Assembly (NCBI RefSeq): GCF_027322205.1
Contig: NZ_DAHVHY010000002.1
Location: 48,072 to 89,074, forward strand
DNA length: 41,003 bases
From: Acidithiobacillus sp.
GTDB lineage: Bacteria; Pseudomonadota; Gammaproteobacteria; Acidithiobacillales; Acidithiobacillaceae
Reading direction: 5' to 3'
Shown: positions 22,209 to 29,120 of the stretch, one piece after another
Layout: every line of letters starts with the position of its first letter
Position numbering within the stretch: the first letter of the stretch is position 1
The notes under the pieces: generated by a model
Seen by the model: only the letters and a program-made list of their open reading frames with translations
Told to the model about the DNA's origin: nothing
Database searches by the model: none
Position numbers and translations under genes: made by a program

Positions 22209-23552
22209 TCAACGACTCATGATGCGGCCGCGCAGTTTGTCGAGTTGCTGCTGTATCATCGTACTAAGGCTCTTGAGTTGTCCGGCACCCTTGCGAACGG
22301 CATCTTCATCTCCTTTTTGTAGGGCGGCAATAATGGCGAGGCCAAGCTTATGGACCTGGGGATGCACTTGTTGTACGGCAACGAATTCCGGCAACTGCGC
22401 CAATTCATTCTGTGCCATGCCGTCCATCCATTTTCCAAGGCGACACTGATGATGGTCAGAGAGGGCCATCGGAGAGGTGGTGGTATTGTTGGCGCTGATC
22501 CTCTCTAAAATGTGGGCGACCCACTGGACGTGCTCCGCTTTGGCGATGGTCAGCCGAGTAGCCAGTGCCGCCTCTCCCTGCACGGCTGCTTCGCTGGCCT
22601 GAGCGAGTTGCTCCCGAACTGTATCCAGACCATTCTGAATTTCACCGAATTGGGCGGCGAAATGATCCATGGACCGTTGTAGGGCATTCATGTGACTGTC
22701 CATGGCGTCAGCAGCAGCGACCTCCTGAGCACCATCGTTAACGATGTTCTTAAGGTTGCTCCGTGTTTTTTGAGCGGATTGATTGGCCATGCCGAGTACT
22801 TCGGCAACGGTTTCCAGTGAGTCGCCACCGCGGCGGAGGTGGGTGATGCTGGCTGCCACTCCTGATTCGACCTGGCCGGCGCCCTCGTTGATGGTGATCG
22901 CTGAGTTACGGATGTCTGCAGCCGCGGCAGCAGAGCTTTGCGCGAGCTTTTTGACTTCATCGGCGACGACCGCGAAGCCGCGGCCGTGCTCCCCTGCGCG
23001 TGCTGCCTCAATGGCAGCATTCAAGGCCAACAAATTAGTTTGTTTGGCAATTTCCTGTACTTTGCCGGCGAGACTGGTGATGTTGCGAGTTTGTTGTAAA
23101 AAAGCCTGCACGGTTTTACCCATGGCGGTAACCGTCTGCTCGACGAGGTCTATTTCGCCAATCAATTCGGATAGCCGTTCATTGCCCATCTGCACCTCGC
23201 GCAGTGTGTTTTCAGCGAGATCCTGGTTTTCGGCGACGCTCTCGGCGGCGCTGCGGACTGCTACAACGACGGCATGCGCCTGGGCTTGGAGAGACTGGCT
23301 ATCTGCTTGCGCCACCTCAATGTTTTTACGGAAGTCAATGCCAAGCAGATGGCCCTCAGCAGCGTGTTCCAGCGCCGTGACCTGGTGGTCGAGGGCAAGA
23401 CAATCCTGCTGCAGGCGGTTTTTCTGCCAATTGCAGATGGGAGCGACGGTAGCTTGCAATTCTTCATCCTCGGCGATCAGATGCGCGGCATCCGCATCAC
23501 CATCCAGACAGGCGGAAAGCAAGGAAATCAAAGAGCTGGGATCGGTAGACAT
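22209..23552 (-). CDS. Soluble methyl-accepting chemotaxis protein with C-terminal CZB domain
   Basis: 447 residues with no membrane helix or signal peptide, so a cytoplasmic receptor. The N-terminal 100 residues are helical with an unclassified sensory part. The conserved CheA/CheW-binding hairpin spans about 167-203 ([20 protein letters not shown], then [17 protein letters not shown]). The C-terminal chemoreceptor zinc-binding domain shows H341, C370 (HHQCRLGKW), H397 and H401. Their spacing of 29, 27 and 4 residues is close to the zinc-ligand spacing known in DgcZ. CZB domains sense zinc, or oxidants through the zinc-bound cysteine. It starts 12 bases after cheV. Confidence 0.92.
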
Positions 23553-23564
23553 AGGGCTGTCCTC

Positions 23565-24521
23565 TTAATTGGGCTGAATGGCCTTGGCGACGGCGCGGGC
23601 CAGATCGTCTGGCAGGAATTTGGCGACGTAGCCATCGGCCCCGACGCTGTGGGCGTGGGATTCGTTGGCCGTGCCGGACAATGAGGAGTGGATGACCACT
23701 GGGATTTCACGCAGGGTCTCATGTTCTTTGATACGTCGGGTGAGGGTGAAGCCGTCCATCTCCGGCATTTCGAGGTCGGTGAGTACCATGGCTACTTTAT
23801 CGCGCAAAGGAATACCTGCTGCCTTGGCATCATGCGCTAACTGTTGCAGGCGATCCCAAGCCTCTTTCCCAGTCTTGGTACCGATGAAAGGAAGGCCAAG
23901 GCTGCGCAGCGTTTTTTCGATCTGATTGCGGGCGACGCCGGAATCATCCGCATAGAGAATGACAGCGCCTTGGGGAATGTTGACTACATGCTGCTGGACC
24001 AGTTCGCCGCCAGCCTTGAAGCGGGAGGGGAGTACTTGTCGCAGAATGTGCTCGACATCGAGGACGAGCGCCAAGCGGGCGGTTTCTTCATCTTCGTCGA
24101 GACGCGCTAGACTCGTGATCAGTCCGCCGACGGCAGCGCCTTCAGCGGAGAGTACCCGGCTCCATTCCAAACGGACGATTTCTTCAACTTCCTCTACGGC
24201 AAAGCCCTGAATGGATCGCTCATACTCCGTAACCAGCAGGATGTTGAGCCCATCGGCGTGGCAACCGACCACAGTGGGAAGATCAATCACAGGGATGATC
24301 TGCCCACGAATGTTGGCGACACCCATCACATGCTCTGGAGCACCAGGCATGGGAGTGATCTTTGGCATCACCAGTGCTTCGCGGACCTTGAAGACGTTGA
24401 TGCCGAAAAGCTCACGGCTGTTGAGCTGCTGATCTTTACCGAGGCGGAAGACCAGGAGTTCAAATTTGTTAGTGCCGGCGAGTTGGGCTCTTTCATCCAC
24501 TTCACGTAATAACTGGCTCAT
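23565..24521 (-). CDS. cheV: Chemotaxis coupling protein CheV (CheW-receiver fusion)
   Basis: 318 residues. A CheW-like domain (about 17-165, with LFGINVFKVREAL and MGVANIRGQIIPVIDL) couples receptors to CheA. A receiver domain follows (about 184-315) with acidic D192/D193, phosphorylatable D249 in VLTDLEMPEMDGF and K301. Known CheV proteins adapt the array through phosphorylation of the receiver. No separate cheW and no cheR/cheB are visible in this window, so CheV may be the main coupling and adaptation protein of this cluster. Confidence 0.95.
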   Translation of the reverse strand: MSQLLREVDERAQLAGTNKFELLVFRLGKDQQLNSRELFGINVFKVREALVMPKITPMPGAPEHVMGVANIRGQIIPVIDLPTVVGCHADGLNILLVTEYERSIQGFAVEEVEEIVRLEWSRVLSAEGAAVGGLITSLARLDEDEETARLALVLDVEHILRQVLPSRFKAGGELVQQHVVNIPQGAVILYADDSGVARNQIEKTLRSLGLPFIGTKTGKEAWDRLQQLAHDAKAAGIPLRDKVAMVLTDLEMPEMDGFTLTRRIKEHETLREIPVVIHSSLSGTANESHAHSVGADGYVAKFLPDDLARAVAKAIQPN

Positions 24522-24587
24522 AGGTTTGGTCCTTGGTGACTTTTCTGGGTGGCGGCAGACAGTGCGTCTAAATTCTGGAAAATCACA

Positions 24588-24761
24588 TCACGCAGCGCTA
24601 AATATCTTACGAATTCGTTCCAGACCTTTATGGAATTGGTGGATAGAACGTCCGAGCGCCTTCCGCACATCGGCTCCACGCAGAAGCGGGTTCAGTTGCC
24701 GGTGATAACGCTCCATGATCAGTCTGTCGGCAGGATTCATATAAAATATGGTATTTTCCAT
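24588..24761 (-). CDS. 57-residue basic small protein between the ODP gene and cheV
   Basis: ATG at 24761, stop at 24588. The sequence begins MENTIFYMNPADRLIMERY and ends IHQFHKGLERIRKIFSAA. It is rich in Arg, His and Lys, predicted helical, with no signal or membrane segment. GGAG lies about 10 bases upstream. It fills most of the 266-base gap between two chemotaxis genes, 26 bases after the ODP gene, on the same strand. No family is recognised. It may be a real small chemotaxis accessory protein, or the gap may instead be regulatory. Confidence 0.5.
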   Translation of the reverse strand: MENTIFYMNPADRLIMERYHRQLNPLLRGADVRKALGRSIHQFHKGLERIRKIFSAA

Positions 24762-24787
24762 AGTAGGTTGGCTCCATCTTTTCAGGC

Positions 24788-25540
24788 TTATTCATTGATG
24801 GCCGTACCGACATCCAGGCTATCAAACCAATTCAAAAAACGTTTCACATTATCGCCACTATAAATGGCGCCATGTTGTGGACAAAGGTAATCAATTTCCA
24901 GATTGCTCACGCGGTTGATCCAGTCTTTTTTGGCAGCATTTGATGGCATCCAGCGCTCATGAAAGTATTTGGCTTTGGTAATGTGCTCTTCGAAAGCGCG
25001 GCCGCTTTTATCGCGACGATCCACCCAGGCACCATGTCCTGGTGGTAAGAGCGCAGCGCCGACATCGCCGGAAAACAGCACCCTGGCCTCTGGATCATAA
25101 ACGTGGAAGTTTCCCGAAGAATGCAGGTAATGAGCAGGAATGAACTCCAGGCGATGGCCGCCAATCAGTATATCCCCACCTTCATCCGGAATGCCCTGCA
25201 GGGGAGCCTCCAACGCCCCGTAATGGCGAATGAAGCCCTCCCAAAGTTTGGGGGTATGCCACTGAATCTGCTCATTGCAGGCGTACCAGAGCGGCAGGCT
25301 GGAGGCAACATCCGGATCCTGATGGGAAACAAAAGCCGCCTTCAGACTGCTTGGCGGTATCACCTCGACAAGGGCAGCGAAAACCTGCGGGAAAATTTCA
25401 AATCCACCAGGATCGAGAATAAGGCTTTGTCCATTCGCTTCCATCACGTAGACATTGGAGTCGACGACGCGATGCTCATCCTGGTCATAGAGAATCCACC
25501 AGCGATGGCTGCCTGCTTCAAATATTGGTGCTGCTTTCAT
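24788..25540 (-). CDS. ODP-type diiron protein (flavodiiron-like metallo-beta-lactamase fold) in the chemotaxis operon
   Basis: A 250-residue stand-alone MBL-fold domain with no flavodoxin or rubredoxin part. Candidate metal ligands follow the flavodiiron pattern: H73-x-D75-x-D77 in SHQDPDVASS, H140 in YLHSSGNF, D159 in LFSGDVG and H223 in CPQHGAIYSG. The second histidine that normally follows the aspartate (HxExDH) is V78 here. In Treponema denticola, a related ODP is known to act as a chemotaxis sensor for Fe(II) and O2. The gene overlaps the receptor-like gene upstream by 23 bases and sits between it and cheV. A sensory rather than detoxifying role is therefore inferred; an NO or O2 reductase role is the alternative. 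Confidence 0.82.
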   Translation of the reverse strand: MKAAPIFEAGSHRWWILYDQDEHRVVDSNVYVMEANGQSLILDPGGFEIFPQVFAALVEVIPPSSLKAAFVSHQDPDVASSLPLWYACNEQIQWHTPKLWEGFIRHYGALEAPLQGIPDEGGDILIGGHRLEFIPAHYLHSSGNFHVYDPEARVLFSGDVGAALLPPGHGAWVDRRDKSGRAFEEHITKAKYFHERWMPSNAAKKDWINRVSNLEIDYLCPQHGAIYSGDNVKRFLNWFDSLDVGTAINE

Positions 25541-26138
25541 GCTCTAAGCTCTCCAGTTGGTGGCGATAAGTGCGGATGGCGTTGGATACGGTGCGCACCG
25601 CCTCTCCCATGTCGCGTGAGACGCGCATCAGCGGGGCACCCGTGCCTTCGGCTAAAGCCGCTTCGATACGGCCATTGGTCACCACGTATTCCTGTTCTTC
25701 AATGCCTTCTTGCAGGGCATCCACCGTGGCGATGAGGCGAAGCAATATTTTCCGTGCATCGGTTTCCTCCTGGGTGATAATTTTTTGATGTTGCACCTGG
25801 GTATTCTTGAGATTGGCGCAGTCCTGTTCATGGTGTGTCATGGCCTGGATCATGGTGCTAAACGATGCCGCGAAGCGCTGATGCTGGAGAATACGCATAT
25901 GCGCCTGAATCAAGGGTGCAATGGTTTCCTGTAGATGGGACGCGGATTCTTTGAGGCTGGCAGCGCGTTCGCGGAAAGCTTGGGCGACGACACCATATCC
26001 GGCTAATGCGTTGCCGTGGCGTTTGACCAGCACCATGGCATTCAAAGCCCGGCGATCAATCTCGCGCAGGGATTTTTCGATGCTCTGGCGGGCGGCAAAG
26101 GAAGCGTCGACGACCTGCATGATGCGCTGGATGTTCAT
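25518..26138 (-). CDS. Minimal soluble receptor-like coiled-coil protein
   Basis: 206 residues, all helical, no membrane segment. The part near residues 25-65 (EIDRRALNAMVLVKRHGNAL, then AGYGVVAQAFRERAASL) aligns by eye with the receptor hairpin tip ([20 protein letters not shown], then [17 protein letters not shown]). It keeps LNA, the turn glycine and GYGVVAQ, while the acidic and Glu positions have drifted. The remainder is a long helical region. It starts on the cheA stop (TGATG, one shared base) and overlaps the ODP gene by 23 bases. It is likely the signalling partner that connects ODP to CheA. This is an inference from position and resemblance. Confidence 0.75.
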   Translation of the reverse strand: MNIQRIMQVVDASFAARQSIEKSLREIDRRALNAMVLVKRHGNALAGYGVVAQAFRERAASLKESASHLQETIAPLIQAHMRILQHQRFAASFSTMIQAMTHHEQDCANLKNTQVQHQKIITQEETDARKILLRLIATVDALQEGIEEQEYVVTNGRIEAALAEGTGAPLMRVSRDMGEAVRTVSNAIRTYRHQLESLEHESSTNI

Positions 26139-28213
26139 CAGGCGGCACCGCGCTGATCAAGGGTCGTCCTATCCATACCGGAGTACTCCAAGGAGTGACC
26201 GATCAGTGCCACCGGATCAAGGATGAGGACGACATTACCCTTGCCGGAGATGGTCGCTCCCTGATACCAGGTCTGCTCGGCGAGAAAATCAATGGGTTTG
26301 ACTACCGAATCTTCATTGCCGAGCACCTCCGAAACCATGAAAAGGCCACGTTCGGTAAGAACCCCTTCGATGGGTTCCGAACCCAGACGCAAAGGGCGAT
26401 CATTGAGCAGGGCACCAAGGTCTACCATGGGGGTGATTTGAGTGCCATCTACGCGGTAAACGCTGCGGCCCCCCATACGATGAATACGGTTTTCCTGAAT
26501 ATCCAGCAGGCTTTCGATGCTGGAGATGGGCAGGGCGTAGATTTCCCGACGCAGGCGTAGGTAAAGTACGGGCAATACCGCCATGGTCAGCGGAAACTCC
26601 ATAGCAATCGTGGTGCCGAGACCGAGACGCGTCTGAATATCCAGATGCCCGCGCAGTTTGCGCACGGTTTCTTTGACCACATCCATGCCGACTCCGCGAC
26701 CGGAGAGATCGGTAGCCTGGTCTTTGGTGGAGAAACCGGGCCGAAAGATCAGTTCCAGCGCTTCCTGTTCCGAGAGCCGGGCCGCCTGATCTGTCGTAAT
26801 CACGCCTTTGTCGACGGCCTTCTGAGTGACAAACTGGCGGTCTATGCCACGGCCGTCGTCAGACACTTCGATGCGCACTTTGTCGCCAAGATGCACAGCG
26901 GCCACCCGTATCGTTGCGCTACGCGCTTTACCTCCTGCTTGGCGTACTTCGGGAGGCTCAATGCCGTGGTCGAGGCTGTTGCGGATCAGATGTGTCATGG
27001 GGCCGGAGAGGGCATCGACGACGGTTTTGTCGATTTCGACTTCCTCGCCGACAATGTCGAGTTTGACCTCTTTACCGAGCTGCCGGGAGGCGTCGCGTAC
27101 CACGCGGGGCAGTTGCTGGAAGAGCCGCTTACAGGGCTGCATCCGCAAACGCATGACCGTGCTCTGGATATCGTTGACGGTGAGGTCTACTTCACGGGCG
27201 ATGCGCGTCATATCCTCATTTTCTTCGCCTAGACTACTGACCGCCGAAGCCAGGCGATTGCGTAGGAGGACCAGCTCGCCGACCTGATTCATGACGGCAT
27301 CGAGGCGCAGCGCATCAACGCGGAGCGTGGTGTCGGCGGCCTCTGGCATACTCTGCGCGTGCGCACTGGCAGCGGGGTTCGCTATGGACGCCAGCATCGT
27401 GGGTAGCGACTGCTGCGCATCGAGGTTCTGGACCGGAAGATCAGTGTGGAATGCGGACGCGTCAAGCTCCGATGCAACGCTGGCAGGTTGCGTCTGCGTG
27501 GCGCGCTCCAGTACGTCATAGCCAGGCGCTTGACCGCCATAGAGTTGATCTAACACTCGCTCAAACTCTTCCGGGCTGATCTCGTCTCCGGTGAGGCAGA
27601 ATCGCTCCGGGGCATCAGCGAGACCGGGCGCCTGGTTGCCATAGAGGGAGTCGAGGGTGGCCTCAAACTCGGCCTCACTGATTTCATCATTGCTACCGGG
27701 TGCGGAGTGGCTGCTTACATCGGTACGCTCAACGTAAGTACCGCTGTGACCGTCGACTGTGGTCCGTTGACTGGCCAACAGCGTGGCATCGGTCGGCGGA
27801 CAATAGGGTGGTGTGCTCATGCCTGACTCGATTGTTTGACCAGCAGCGAGTTGCTGAATAACCTGGCCGAGATCCACAGGTCCAGGTGCCGGAATTTCGC
27901 CGTGCGCCAGTTGCTGTAGCATGTTATCGATAACGTCCAGACCTTTGAGGATGGCGTCGATCATGTTGGCAGAAACGGTCAGCGTATGAGAACGCAGTTT
28001 ATCCAGGAGGTCTTCCAGGTGATGCGTCCATCTGACGAGATGGTCTGCTTCCAGGAACCCCGCTCCGCCTTTCAGGGTATGAAAGGCTCGGAATACCGAT
28101 GCCAGAATTTCGTCATTGCCAGGGTCGGATTCCAGGAGGAGGGTGTCCTCCTGGGCTTTTTCGAGGAGCTCTCTGGCTTCGGGAAGGTAGTCCTGCAAAA
28201 TCTCCATATCCAT
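26138..28213 (-). CDS. cheA: Chemotaxis histidine kinase CheA
   Basis: 691 residues. P1/HPt domain with phosphorylated H45 (FRAFHTLKGG); a long linker; dimerisation domain (about 295-355); ATPase domain with N-box HLIRNSLDHGIE near 408, G1 DDGRGID and G2 GRGVGMDVV near 505; and a CheW-like domain from about 545. The linker carries a 22-residue repeat, at residues 176-197 and 210-231 (EISEAEFEATLDSLYG versus EISPEEFERVLDQLYG), in place of an ordinary P2 domain. It starts 2 bases after cheZ and shares one base with the next gene. Confidence 0.97.
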   Translation of the reverse strand: MDMEILQDYLPEARELLEKAQEDTLLLESDPGNDEILASVFRAFHTLKGGAGFLEADHLVRWTHHLEDLLDKLRSHTLTVSANMIDAILKGLDVIDNMLQQLAHGEIPAPGPVDLGQVIQQLAAGQTIESGMSTPPYCPPTDATLLASQRTTVDGHSGTYVERTDVSSHSAPGSNDEISEAEFEATLDSLYGNQAPGLADAPERFCLTGDEISPEEFERVLDQLYGGQAPGYDVLERATQTQPASVASELDASAFHTDLPVQNLDAQQSLPTMLASIANPAASAHAQSMPEAADTTLRVDALRLDAVMNQVGELVLLRNRLASAVSSLGEENEDMTRIAREVDLTVNDIQSTVMRLRMQPCKRLFQQLPRVVRDASRQLGKEVKLDIVGEEVEIDKTVVDALSGPMTHLIRNSLDHGIEPPEVRQAGGKARSATIRVAAVHLGDKVRIEVSDDGRGIDRQFVTQKAVDKGVITTDQAARLSEQEALELIFRPGFSTKDQATDLSGRGVGMDVVKETVRKLRGHLDIQTRLGLGTTIAMEFPLTMAVLPVLYLRLRREIYALPISSIESLLDIQENRIHRMGGRSVYRVDGTQITPMVDLGALLNDRPLRLGSEPIEGVLTERGLFMVSEVLGNEDSVVKPIDFLAEQTWYQGATISGKGNVVLILDPVALIGHSLEYSGMDRTTLDQRGAA

Positions 28214-28215
28214 GA

Positions 28216-28704
28216 TTAAATTCCCAATTCTGAGAGCAGGGCATCTACTTCGTCTTGATTGACGTGGGGATTGGAATCCACAAAATCATCCGTTTGGGGC
28301 GCGTAGTACGGGTTGGTTTTCATCCCGATTTCGACGAGTGTCAGACGGATGCGTTCTTCGACTGCTTGCAGAAGGGCGATGGCTTTTTTTAGCCGCTGAC
28401 CGGCAAGATCCTGCCCTTGTTGGCTGGTCAGAATGGTGAGCAGGGCACTGTCAATCTGGATGAGCGATTCGTCGATAAAACTGTTGTGGGCGCTACGGAT
28501 GTCATTTACGGCATCCTGGGCACGCTCAACGGCAGATAGCGTGGCCATGGTTTGTTCCTCGGTGAGGCGCAGAGCTTCTTCCAGTGGATTTTGCGCACCC
28601 GAAAGATTTTCTTCTGCCATATTGGCGATACGTTTCAGGCCTTCACGCAGGAGCAGTTCGGCCTCGCTGAGCAGACGCTCCGGGTTTAACACATGCTCGC
28701 TCAT
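28216..28704 (-). CDS. cheZ: CheY-P phosphatase CheZ
   Basis: 162 residues, shorter than the 214 of E. coli. The long helical hairpin ends in the catalytic segment [13 protein letters not shown], with D99 and Q103 matching the known D143 and Q147. The C-terminal CheY-binding tail [11 protein letters not shown] is conserved and attached by a linker containing YYAPQTDD. The start overlaps the cheY stop by ATGA. It dephosphorylates CheY-P. Confidence 0.93.
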
Positions 28705-29120
28705 GACTGACCTCCCTGGGCTGCTTGCAGACGTTTGAAAACAGCGTCGAGTTTTTCCTTGAGTGTTTCGGCAGTGAAGGGTTTGACAATATAGCCGTTC
28801 ACCCCCGCCTGGGCAGCATCAAGGATGTTCTCGCGTTTTGCCTCAGCAGTGACCATAAGGACCGGTATGTGTTTGAGTTGAGCGTCTGAACGAATGGCAC
28901 GGAGCAGGTCGATGCCCTGCATGTTGGGCATGTTCCAGTCGGAGACGACAAAATCGAAGGGGCGACTACGCAGTTTTTGCAGCGCCTGTACCCCATCTTC
29001 AGCTTCATCAAAATTGCTGAAGCCTAGTTCACGCAATAGATTTCGTACAATCCTGCGCATGGTGGAGAAATCGTCCACCACAAGGATGTGAATGCTTTTG
29101 TCGACCTGATCTATTCCCAT
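28701..29120 (-). CDS. cheY: Chemotaxis response regulator CheY
   Basis: A 139-residue single receiver domain with D16/D17, phosphorylatable D61 (FVVSDWNMP), T91, Y110 and K113 (IVKPF). Phosphorylated by CheA, it binds the flagellar switch. It is preceded by a strong GGAGGAG...AGGAG region and a sigma-54-type promoter about 90 bases upstream, so it probably starts the cheYZA-ODP-cheV transcription unit. Confidence 0.97.

Follow-up and report, generated by a model that had tools for sequence, protein, structure and literature searches.

A single-chain protein with two predicted chemoreceptor-tip hairpins, paired with a diiron-type ODP in an Acidithiobacillus chemotaxis operon

Results

Gene order between cheA and cheV

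The DNA analysed here (hereafter the window) comprises 41,003 nucleotides (nt) from an Acidithiobacillus sp. (assembly GCF_027322205.1, contig NZ_DAHVHY010000002.1, positions 48,072 to 89,074), and it contains a chemotaxis operon in which a 206-amino-acid (206-aa) helical protein and a diiron-type protein of the ODP family are encoded between cheA and cheV. The order on the minus strand is motD, the gene for a SPOR protein, cheY, cheZ, cheA, the gene for the 206-aa protein, ODP, a 57-aa open reading frame (ORF), cheV and the gene for a soluble receptor with a CZB domain (Table 1). The genome assembly comprises 2.28 Mb in 150 contigs and is 90% complete. An earlier interpretation, made from the letters only (the sequence-only reading), had described a chemotaxis operon with an ODP, a receptor-like partner that lacks transmembrane (TM) segments and a soluble CZB receptor, and gene calls and Pfam searches confirmed that description. 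It had also seen no membrane segment in the 206-aa protein, ODP, the 57-aa ORF or the CZB receptor, in agreement with the highest 19-residue Kyte-Doolittle mean of 1.55.

We observed the order cheA, 206-aa gene, ODP repeatedly, in Acidithiobacillus, Thiomonas, Acidihalobacter and two metagenome-assembled genomes (MAGs) labelled Acidobacteria, and the arrangement is thus not due to chance. The 206-aa gene overlaps ODP by 23 nt in all 6 of the Acidithiobacillus and Acidihalobacter loci checked and by 4 nt in the Thiomonas loci; from the sequences, translational coupling of the two genes is likely. The 2 Acidobacteria-labelled loci (L048 and L049, from bog MAGs labelled Acidobacteriaceae and Bryobacterales) have the order cheA, 206-aa gene, ODP, receptor, cheV, with an ODP that is 71% identical, and represent either lateral transfer or mis-binning.

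Table 1. Positions of features of the chemotaxis operon in the window
Feature	Position	Strand	Evidence	Remark
cheY	28701..29120	-	Pfam + NCBIfam	same operon
cheZ	28216..28704	-	Pfam	same operon
cheA (Hpt, dimerisation, ATPase, CheW-like domains)	26138..28213	-	Pfam	
Two-tip protein, 206 aa, predicted to mimic a chemoreceptor-tip dimer within one chain	25518..26138	-	family alignment, halves vs PDB, hhalign, AlphaFold2, VIA	
Hairpin tip 1 (two-tip residues 27-57)	25968..26060	-	residue counts, 39 members	
Hairpin tip 2 (two-tip residues 147-181)	25596..25700	-	residue counts, 39 members	
ODP, diiron-type MBL-fold protein, 250 aa	24788..25540	-	Pfam, PDB match, conservation, trees	
Overlap of two-tip gene and ODP, 23 nt	25518..25540	-	sequence	
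Relic of soluble PAS-like/MCP/CZB receptor gene	24518..24787	-	comparison with relatives' loci	
57-aa ORF	24588-24761	-	alignment to intact receptors	surviving N-terminal fragment inside receptor relic
cheV (CheW-like domain + receiver)	23565..24521	-	Pfam	
Soluble MCP with C-terminal CZB domain	22209..23552	-	Pfam, motif	

Two receptor-tip regions in one chain

The 206-aa protein had been taken for a minimal receptor-like coiled coil. Its likeness to receptors and its lack of a TM segment stand, but it is not an ordinary small receptor: sequence comparisons indicate that it carries 2 chemoreceptor-tip hairpins in one chain, and we refer to it as the two-tip protein. An alignment of 39 family members, many of them near relatives, so that residue counts among them are not independent, showed 2 conserved stretches that stand out. 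In searches of the PDB, a profile of the N-terminal half matched receptors of Thermotoga maritima (E 4.7e-13) and a profile of the C-terminal half matched chemoreceptors (E 8.7e-9; 9.7e-6 for the best single stretch), with receptors as the top five matches in each search. By hhalign, the two halves aligned to one and the same set of receptor-tip columns (E 1.3e-10 and 8.7e-8) and to each other (E 8.9e-5). A tip hidden Markov model (HMM), which was built from 14 receptors and tested on the 39 family members, found a domain at E<0.1 in 26 of them, 7 of which also scored at tip 2, and found none at that level in 195 heptad-preserving shuffles. Both tips scored within the single sequence of a Rhodospirillales member (1e-4 and 3e-4). 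The Pfam model MCPsignal (PF00015), of the methyl-accepting chemotaxis proteins (MCPs), matched 18 of 19 close members, only at E values of up to 1 (best, 0.002). By profile, the hairpin signalling tip that is homologous to that of MCPs is present twice per chain, where an MCP has one hairpin per chain.

The best PDB matches of the family (E 1e-10) were 3g6b and 3g67, which we take to be Tm14, a soluble chemoreceptor of T. maritima. That protein is similar in length (213 vs 206 aa), and from the matches it has one tip in mid-chain, at about residues 99-113, whereas the window protein has 2, near residues 33-46 and 155-167. AlphaFold2 predicted a single-chain four-helix bundle, and in the model the protein looks like a covalent mimic of a chemoreceptor-tip dimer, with 2 hairpin tips at one end. 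Foldseek returned no match of this model to the PDB at E 1e-3 or better. Among the VIA matches listed, the receptors PilJ and McpS appeared with their periplasmic parts, and there was no structure of a receptor tip; such matches carry little weight for helical bundles.

We used the tip positions that we take to be N381, E385 and R388 of Escherichia coli Tsr to compare individual residues, and found N, E and R there in all 14 reference receptors. Tip 1 has N in 39/39 family members and R or K in 36/39, while the tip Glu occurs in none and is replaced by L, I, V, A or M in every one; tip 2 has the Glu in 36 members and the Arg in 5. The Arg of tip 1 is R40 and the Glu of tip 2 is E159. The 2 tips thus appear complementary, as if the features of one receptor subunit had been split over 2 hairpins, which a fused asymmetric dimer would allow. 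A literature search for two-hairpin or single-chain receptor tips and for ODP partners, mostly outside subscription journals, returned no description of the two-tip protein, and priority for it cannot be claimed.

The ODP and its diiron ligands

The assignment of the neighbouring protein to the ODP family, made in the sequence-only reading, was borne out by a PF19583 score of 225 bits (cut-off 27.2; E 1e-66). The T. maritima and Treponema denticola proteins (TmODP and TdODP) were its best PDB matches, TmODP at 4e-60, and its closest named relatives in our ODP search were from Acidithiobacillus species. The residues that we presume to be iron ligands, with positions taken from flavodiiron proteins, are H73, D75, D77, H137, D159, Q222 and H223; the motifs HQDPDV and PQHG are present in the window ODP, and the ligand set is at least 95% kept in 68 ODPs. 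PQHG, with its Gln, occurs in the complete ODP rows and is absent from 3 flavodiiron rows of the same comparison. In the available part of a published account (PMC7785958), the diiron motif of ODPs is described as one in which the Gln of motif 5 replaces the third His of motif 2.

The window ODP matches only MBL-fold models in Pfam over its 250 aa and has no C-terminal flavodoxin domain. Flavodiiron reductases have the motif HxExDH. We rejected assignment of the window protein to these reductases: it lacks both the flavodoxin domain and HxExDH and does not group with them. The phylogeny with flavodiiron proteins and ODPs that had been proposed as a check placed it with TmODP and TdODP, across a branch (support 97, long branches) from four flavodiiron rows. 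The MBL fold and most diiron ligands are common to both groups; the window ODP differs in having no flavodoxin domain, HQDPDV for HxExDH, and the motif-5 Gln described in PMC7785958. By family, and by analogy with the T. maritima and T. denticola proteins, the window ODP is likely to sense Fe/O2.

Other ODP genes differ in setting and form. A second ODP of the window genome (L086:4744-5916, contig C71) is 34% identical to the first, has the motif HEDPDI, and is divergent from an upstream purH-like gene; it is followed by a 122-aa ORF that is Roadblock/LC7-like by eye and has no Pfam match. In a single-contig genome of the genus (G003:C1:1098605-1099350), the che-type ODP is interrupted, with residues 1-169 in one frame and 160-249 in another, which may be a broken gene or a sequencing error, and is still preceded by a two-tip frame (L023). 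An ODP is fused to a GGDEF domain in a 601-aa frame at L158:910-2715, and many other ODP frames of our phylum sample, of ~600-850 aa or longer, may carry other output domains.

Association of the two-tip gene with one ODP clade

Strong matches to the two-tip protein occurred in 22 of 369 genomes of a class sample (E <=1.4e-20; next tier from 8.6e-14) and in 7 of 398 genomes of a phylum sample (E <=2.4e-24; next, 1.1e-15). ODP directly follows the two-tip gene on the same strand in 22/22 of the former, and the match precedes ODP in 7/7 of the latter, which gives 28 of 28 genomes for the 2 samples combined, the window's own genome being in both. These searches scored only the first 7-8 candidates per genome; they may overlook more divergent pairs, and the figure of 28 is a minimum. 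Three of the 7 matches in the phylum sample (G738, G666 and G667) are each marked with one internal stop codon; G738 and G666 nevertheless have an open two-tip frame, whereas none was found in G667.

The converse does not hold: a two-tip neighbour was present at 16 of the 59 best ODP loci taken from two family searches, within the stretch covered. Among 41 loci of the ODP search, 40 have the pair (one of them cut by a contig start), the exception being L072, with an ODP that is 22% identical over 132 residues. The ODPs with a two-tip partner form one clade, with a support of 95 (SH-aLRT, an approximate likelihood-ratio test) in a fast tree with 72 rows, chosen by hand from 173 matching frames with the partner labels already visible, and of 100/98 in a more careful tree with 66 of these rows, from which the 4 flavodiiron rows were left out together with L158 and L160, which are divergent. 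The labels came from a profile (A3) that itself contains many of these partners, and L167, from G667, was counted as partner-linked in spite of its broken partner. The second ODP of the window genome, TmODP and TdODP all lie outside the clade. D27, E48 and W197 of ODP are invariant among the 39 rows of the clade and absent from the 27 others, and by this pattern they are candidates for a partner interface; K204 is a further clade-specific residue.

Related pairs were found in more distant genomes, including Methylomicrobium and Pseudoalteromonas. The Methylomicrobium pair adjoins GGDEF-EAL and HDOD genes, a Sneathiellales pair adjoins SpoIIE-receiver and ATPase genes, and another lies ~1.4 kb from an MCP gene. 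A Pseudoalteromonas xiamenensis plasmid carries a bare two-gene unit among unrelated genes, annotated 'chemotaxis protein' and 'MBL fold metallo-hydrolase'. In the Methylomicrobium locus (L066:6343-12108), two ODPs flank the GGDEF-EAL gene, and only the second has an upstream two-tip partner, with the HDOD gene following.

The 57-aa ORF as a remnant of a lost receptor gene

The sequence-only reading had included the 57-aa ORF among the components of the system. Alignment with relatives' loci led us to reject it as a gene: it corresponds to the N-terminal part of intact receptors of 428-437 aa (L033-L035), and the receptor C-terminal tail continues after it in another frame (junction 24602/24601). 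Relative to L033, window positions 24853-24769 correspond to the region around the point where ODP ends and the receptor begins (76%), 24761-24601 to the PAS-like part of the receptor (78%), and 24602-24500 to the receptor C-terminal tail and the start of cheV (98%), while ~83 and ~935 nt are absent between the aligned segments and the frame is broken. We conclude from this comparison that deletions of ~935 and ~83 nt destroyed a receptor gene between ODP and cheV. The L032 locus, with an ODP 98% identical to that of the window, aligns without a gap over 344 nt of the relic, and the loss is therefore older than the split of these two.

We considered the lost receptor as a possible partner of ODP, and compared the ODP-to-cheV interval at 28 loci that have both genes. 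A receptor frame of at least 400 aa with a canonical tip is present in 20, a shorter one in 3 (L037, L040, L043) and none in 5 (L032, L036, L044, L046, L062); all 28 have the two-tip gene, ODP and cheV. The receptor, missing or short at some loci at which the two-tip gene is always kept, is thus the more dispensable neighbour. Pfam found MCPsignal and CZB domains in both intact intervening receptors tested. The 57-aa ORF has a weak NCBIfam match to Aer2 (E 4e-4), and the intact receptors of L034, L047 and L064 have weak PAS_9 or PAS_4 matches (best E 2e-4 to 0.02) below the cut-off. No PAS match was found in those of L048 and L058; the L045 receptor has a strong one, but its N-terminus differs. 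The N-terminal part of the lost receptor may, on this slight sequence likeness, be called PAS-like, and not more.

Selection and iron oxidation

Ratios of nonsynonymous to synonymous substitution rates were 0.10-0.21 for the two-tip gene and 0.07-0.20 for ODP, from five comparisons for each of the two, and, tighter, 0.03-0.07 for cheV; a sixth comparison (L037) was saturated and gave no value. The connection with Fe(II) oxidation suggested in the sequence-only reading has been weakened. Rusticyanin was found in 7 of 17 genomes of the genus, two of these 7 (G011 and G014) having no che-type ODP, and was not found in the window's own, 90% complete genome, in which Cyc2 was not searched for. A cheA homologue (E <=1e-100) and a che-type ODP (E <1e-60) are both present in 23 of the 29 genomes of the family and both absent from 6, one of which is only 61% complete. 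The pair, by these patterns, follows chemotaxis rather than rusticyanin-type iron oxidation.

Discussion

A possible input to CheA and its rivals

We lean, without great confidence, towards the view that ODP and the two-tip protein make up an input module of two genes, through which Fe/O2 acts on CheA and which does not adapt by methylation. What we observed is the arrangement of the genes, the homology of both tips to receptors, the fold as predicted, the association with a single ODP clade, the set of ligand residues in ODP and the loss of the receptor next to it; Fe/O2 as the ligand would follow by analogy with the ODPs of T. maritima and T. denticola, and contacts of the two-tip protein with ODP and with CheA are presumed. 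Cytoplasmic ODP would bind a diiron centre and O2 and switch state with iron and oxygen, and this state would be passed to the two-tip protein, a dedicated signalling arm. The tip end of the latter may meet the kinase baseplate and couple to the CheA and CheV encoded in the operon, and kinase activity would change when ODP switches, either because the two-tip protein takes the place of a receptor dimer in the array or through competition with receptor tips. The predicted helices extend only ~40-60 residues from the tips, and receptor methylation sites lie farther from the tip than that; with helices seemingly too short for a methylation region, the input should not adapt, and would report an absolute Fe/O2 level without CheR/CheB adaptation. 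The wider proposition is that single-chain tip pseudo-dimers constitute a distinct, unrecognised chemosensory class, through which one ODP lineage plugs an Fe/O2 signal into kinase arrays, with subunit roles split between two hairpins; to this we give an even chance.

The closest known counterpart is in T. denticola, for which the available part of a published study (PMC7666581) reports that ODP (TDE2498) is genetically coupled to TDE2496, an MCP homologue without TM and sensing modules that can modulate CheA, and that CheA becomes more ordered when ODP is lost. The window pair resembles this one in joining an ODP to a TM-less MCP homologue, TDE2496 being compared by its description in that source only, but T. 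denticola ODP lies outside the partner-linked clade and the window ODP belongs to a different lineage.

Several observations weigh against the proposed CheA input. Designed coiled coils also match the half-profiles (8qae at 1.4e-8, N-terminal; 8a3k at 7.5e-6, C-terminal), so that the scores owe something to coiled-coil bias. The window member reaches only E 0.2 with the tip HMM at tip 1 and nothing at tip 2, tip 2 reaches E<0.1 in only 7 of 39 members, and the window protein scores 15.8 bits with PF00015, under the cut-off of 34.6. Its model has a helix over residues 3-101 with no DSSP break at tip 1, so that the tip 1 hairpin in this member depends on the structural match and on the model of the Methylomicrobium (L066) protein. 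At the positions that we take to be canonical trimer contacts (Tsr F373, I377 and E385), the residues are replaced in tip 1, and the two-tip protein may for that reason not enter arrays. Distant pairs lie outside che operons, and the output thus need not be CheA everywhere. For T. denticola, the authors saw no clear array place for ODP and suggested peripheral action, according to the available part of PMC7666581.

Those distant pairs, and the splitting or loss of canonical tip residues, would also suit a receptor-tip descendant that serves as a general ODP effector or scaffold outside arrays, with the place beside cheA as one of several uses. We think this unlikely, though not far-fetched: in Acidithiobacillus, Thiomonas and Acidihalobacter the gene stands between cheA and cheV and overlaps ODP, the 23 family genomes (of 29) with che-type ODP are also those with a cheA homologue, and the P. 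xiamenensis homologue is annotated as a chemotaxis protein. The replacements at the presumed trimer contacts and the absence of the tip 1 Glu from 39/39 members could point to an array poison or cap, which would fill a receptor place, form no trimers, and loosen CheA packing once released by ODP. The greater order of CheA on loss of ODP in T. denticola (PMC7666581, available part) would fit this by analogy, but the partner there is not shown to be of the two-tip type, and we judge such a role improbable. Very little probability attaches to a role in which ODP protects the chemotaxis proteins by scavenging O2 or NO catalytically: ODP shares its fold and most ligands with flavodiiron proteins, but the missing flavodoxin domain, the PQHG Gln and the position of the flavodiiron rows across the branch all speak against it. 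Hardly tenable, finally, is the original form of the idea, in which an ordinary minimal receptor, ODP and a functional 57-aa protein would respond to Fe(II)/O2 in the service of iron oxidation; ODP and the operon are real, but the ORF is a relic, the partner has two tips, and rusticyanin was not found.

If the proposed coupling of the pair to CheA is correct, it suggests a new way for an intracellular sensor to plug into the chemotaxis machinery, and would show one route from a free cytoplasmic diiron protein to the kinase, a matter not settled for T. denticola. Chemoreceptors are understood as homodimers, and it is difficult to separate by mutation the roles of their two subunits, trimer contact on the one hand and contact with kinase or adaptor on the other; in a natural single-chain version whose tips differ, each half could be tested alone. 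The partner-linked ODP clade would also be a genomic marker for such an input in many Proteobacteria.

The CZB receptor and a second chemosensory set

The receptor downstream of cheV scores 41.1 bits with PF13682 (cut-off 29.4), and its residues 341-402 match the 3His/1Cys spacing in a pattern search. Known CZB receptors include Helicobacter pylori TlpD and Salmonella McpA. The CZB core has 3 His and 1 Cys and the motif CX(L/F)GXW(Y/L), according to the available part of PMC8262984; the window motif, CRLGKWM, has M where the published one has Y or L. This receptor is a separate redox/zinc input and not part of the ODP pair. A 2026 preprint, in its available part, reports attraction to oxygen-rich conditions via a CZB-type receptor.

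The window genome also contains a second, canonical set of chemotaxis genes: an MCP-type ORF, a second cheA, an MCP gene and cheW on contig C107 (L083), and cheR with cheD-like and cheB-like ORFs, read by eye, on contig C9 (L085). The former lie at one contig end and the latter at the start of another contig, and the 2 groups are perhaps one operon split by assembly.

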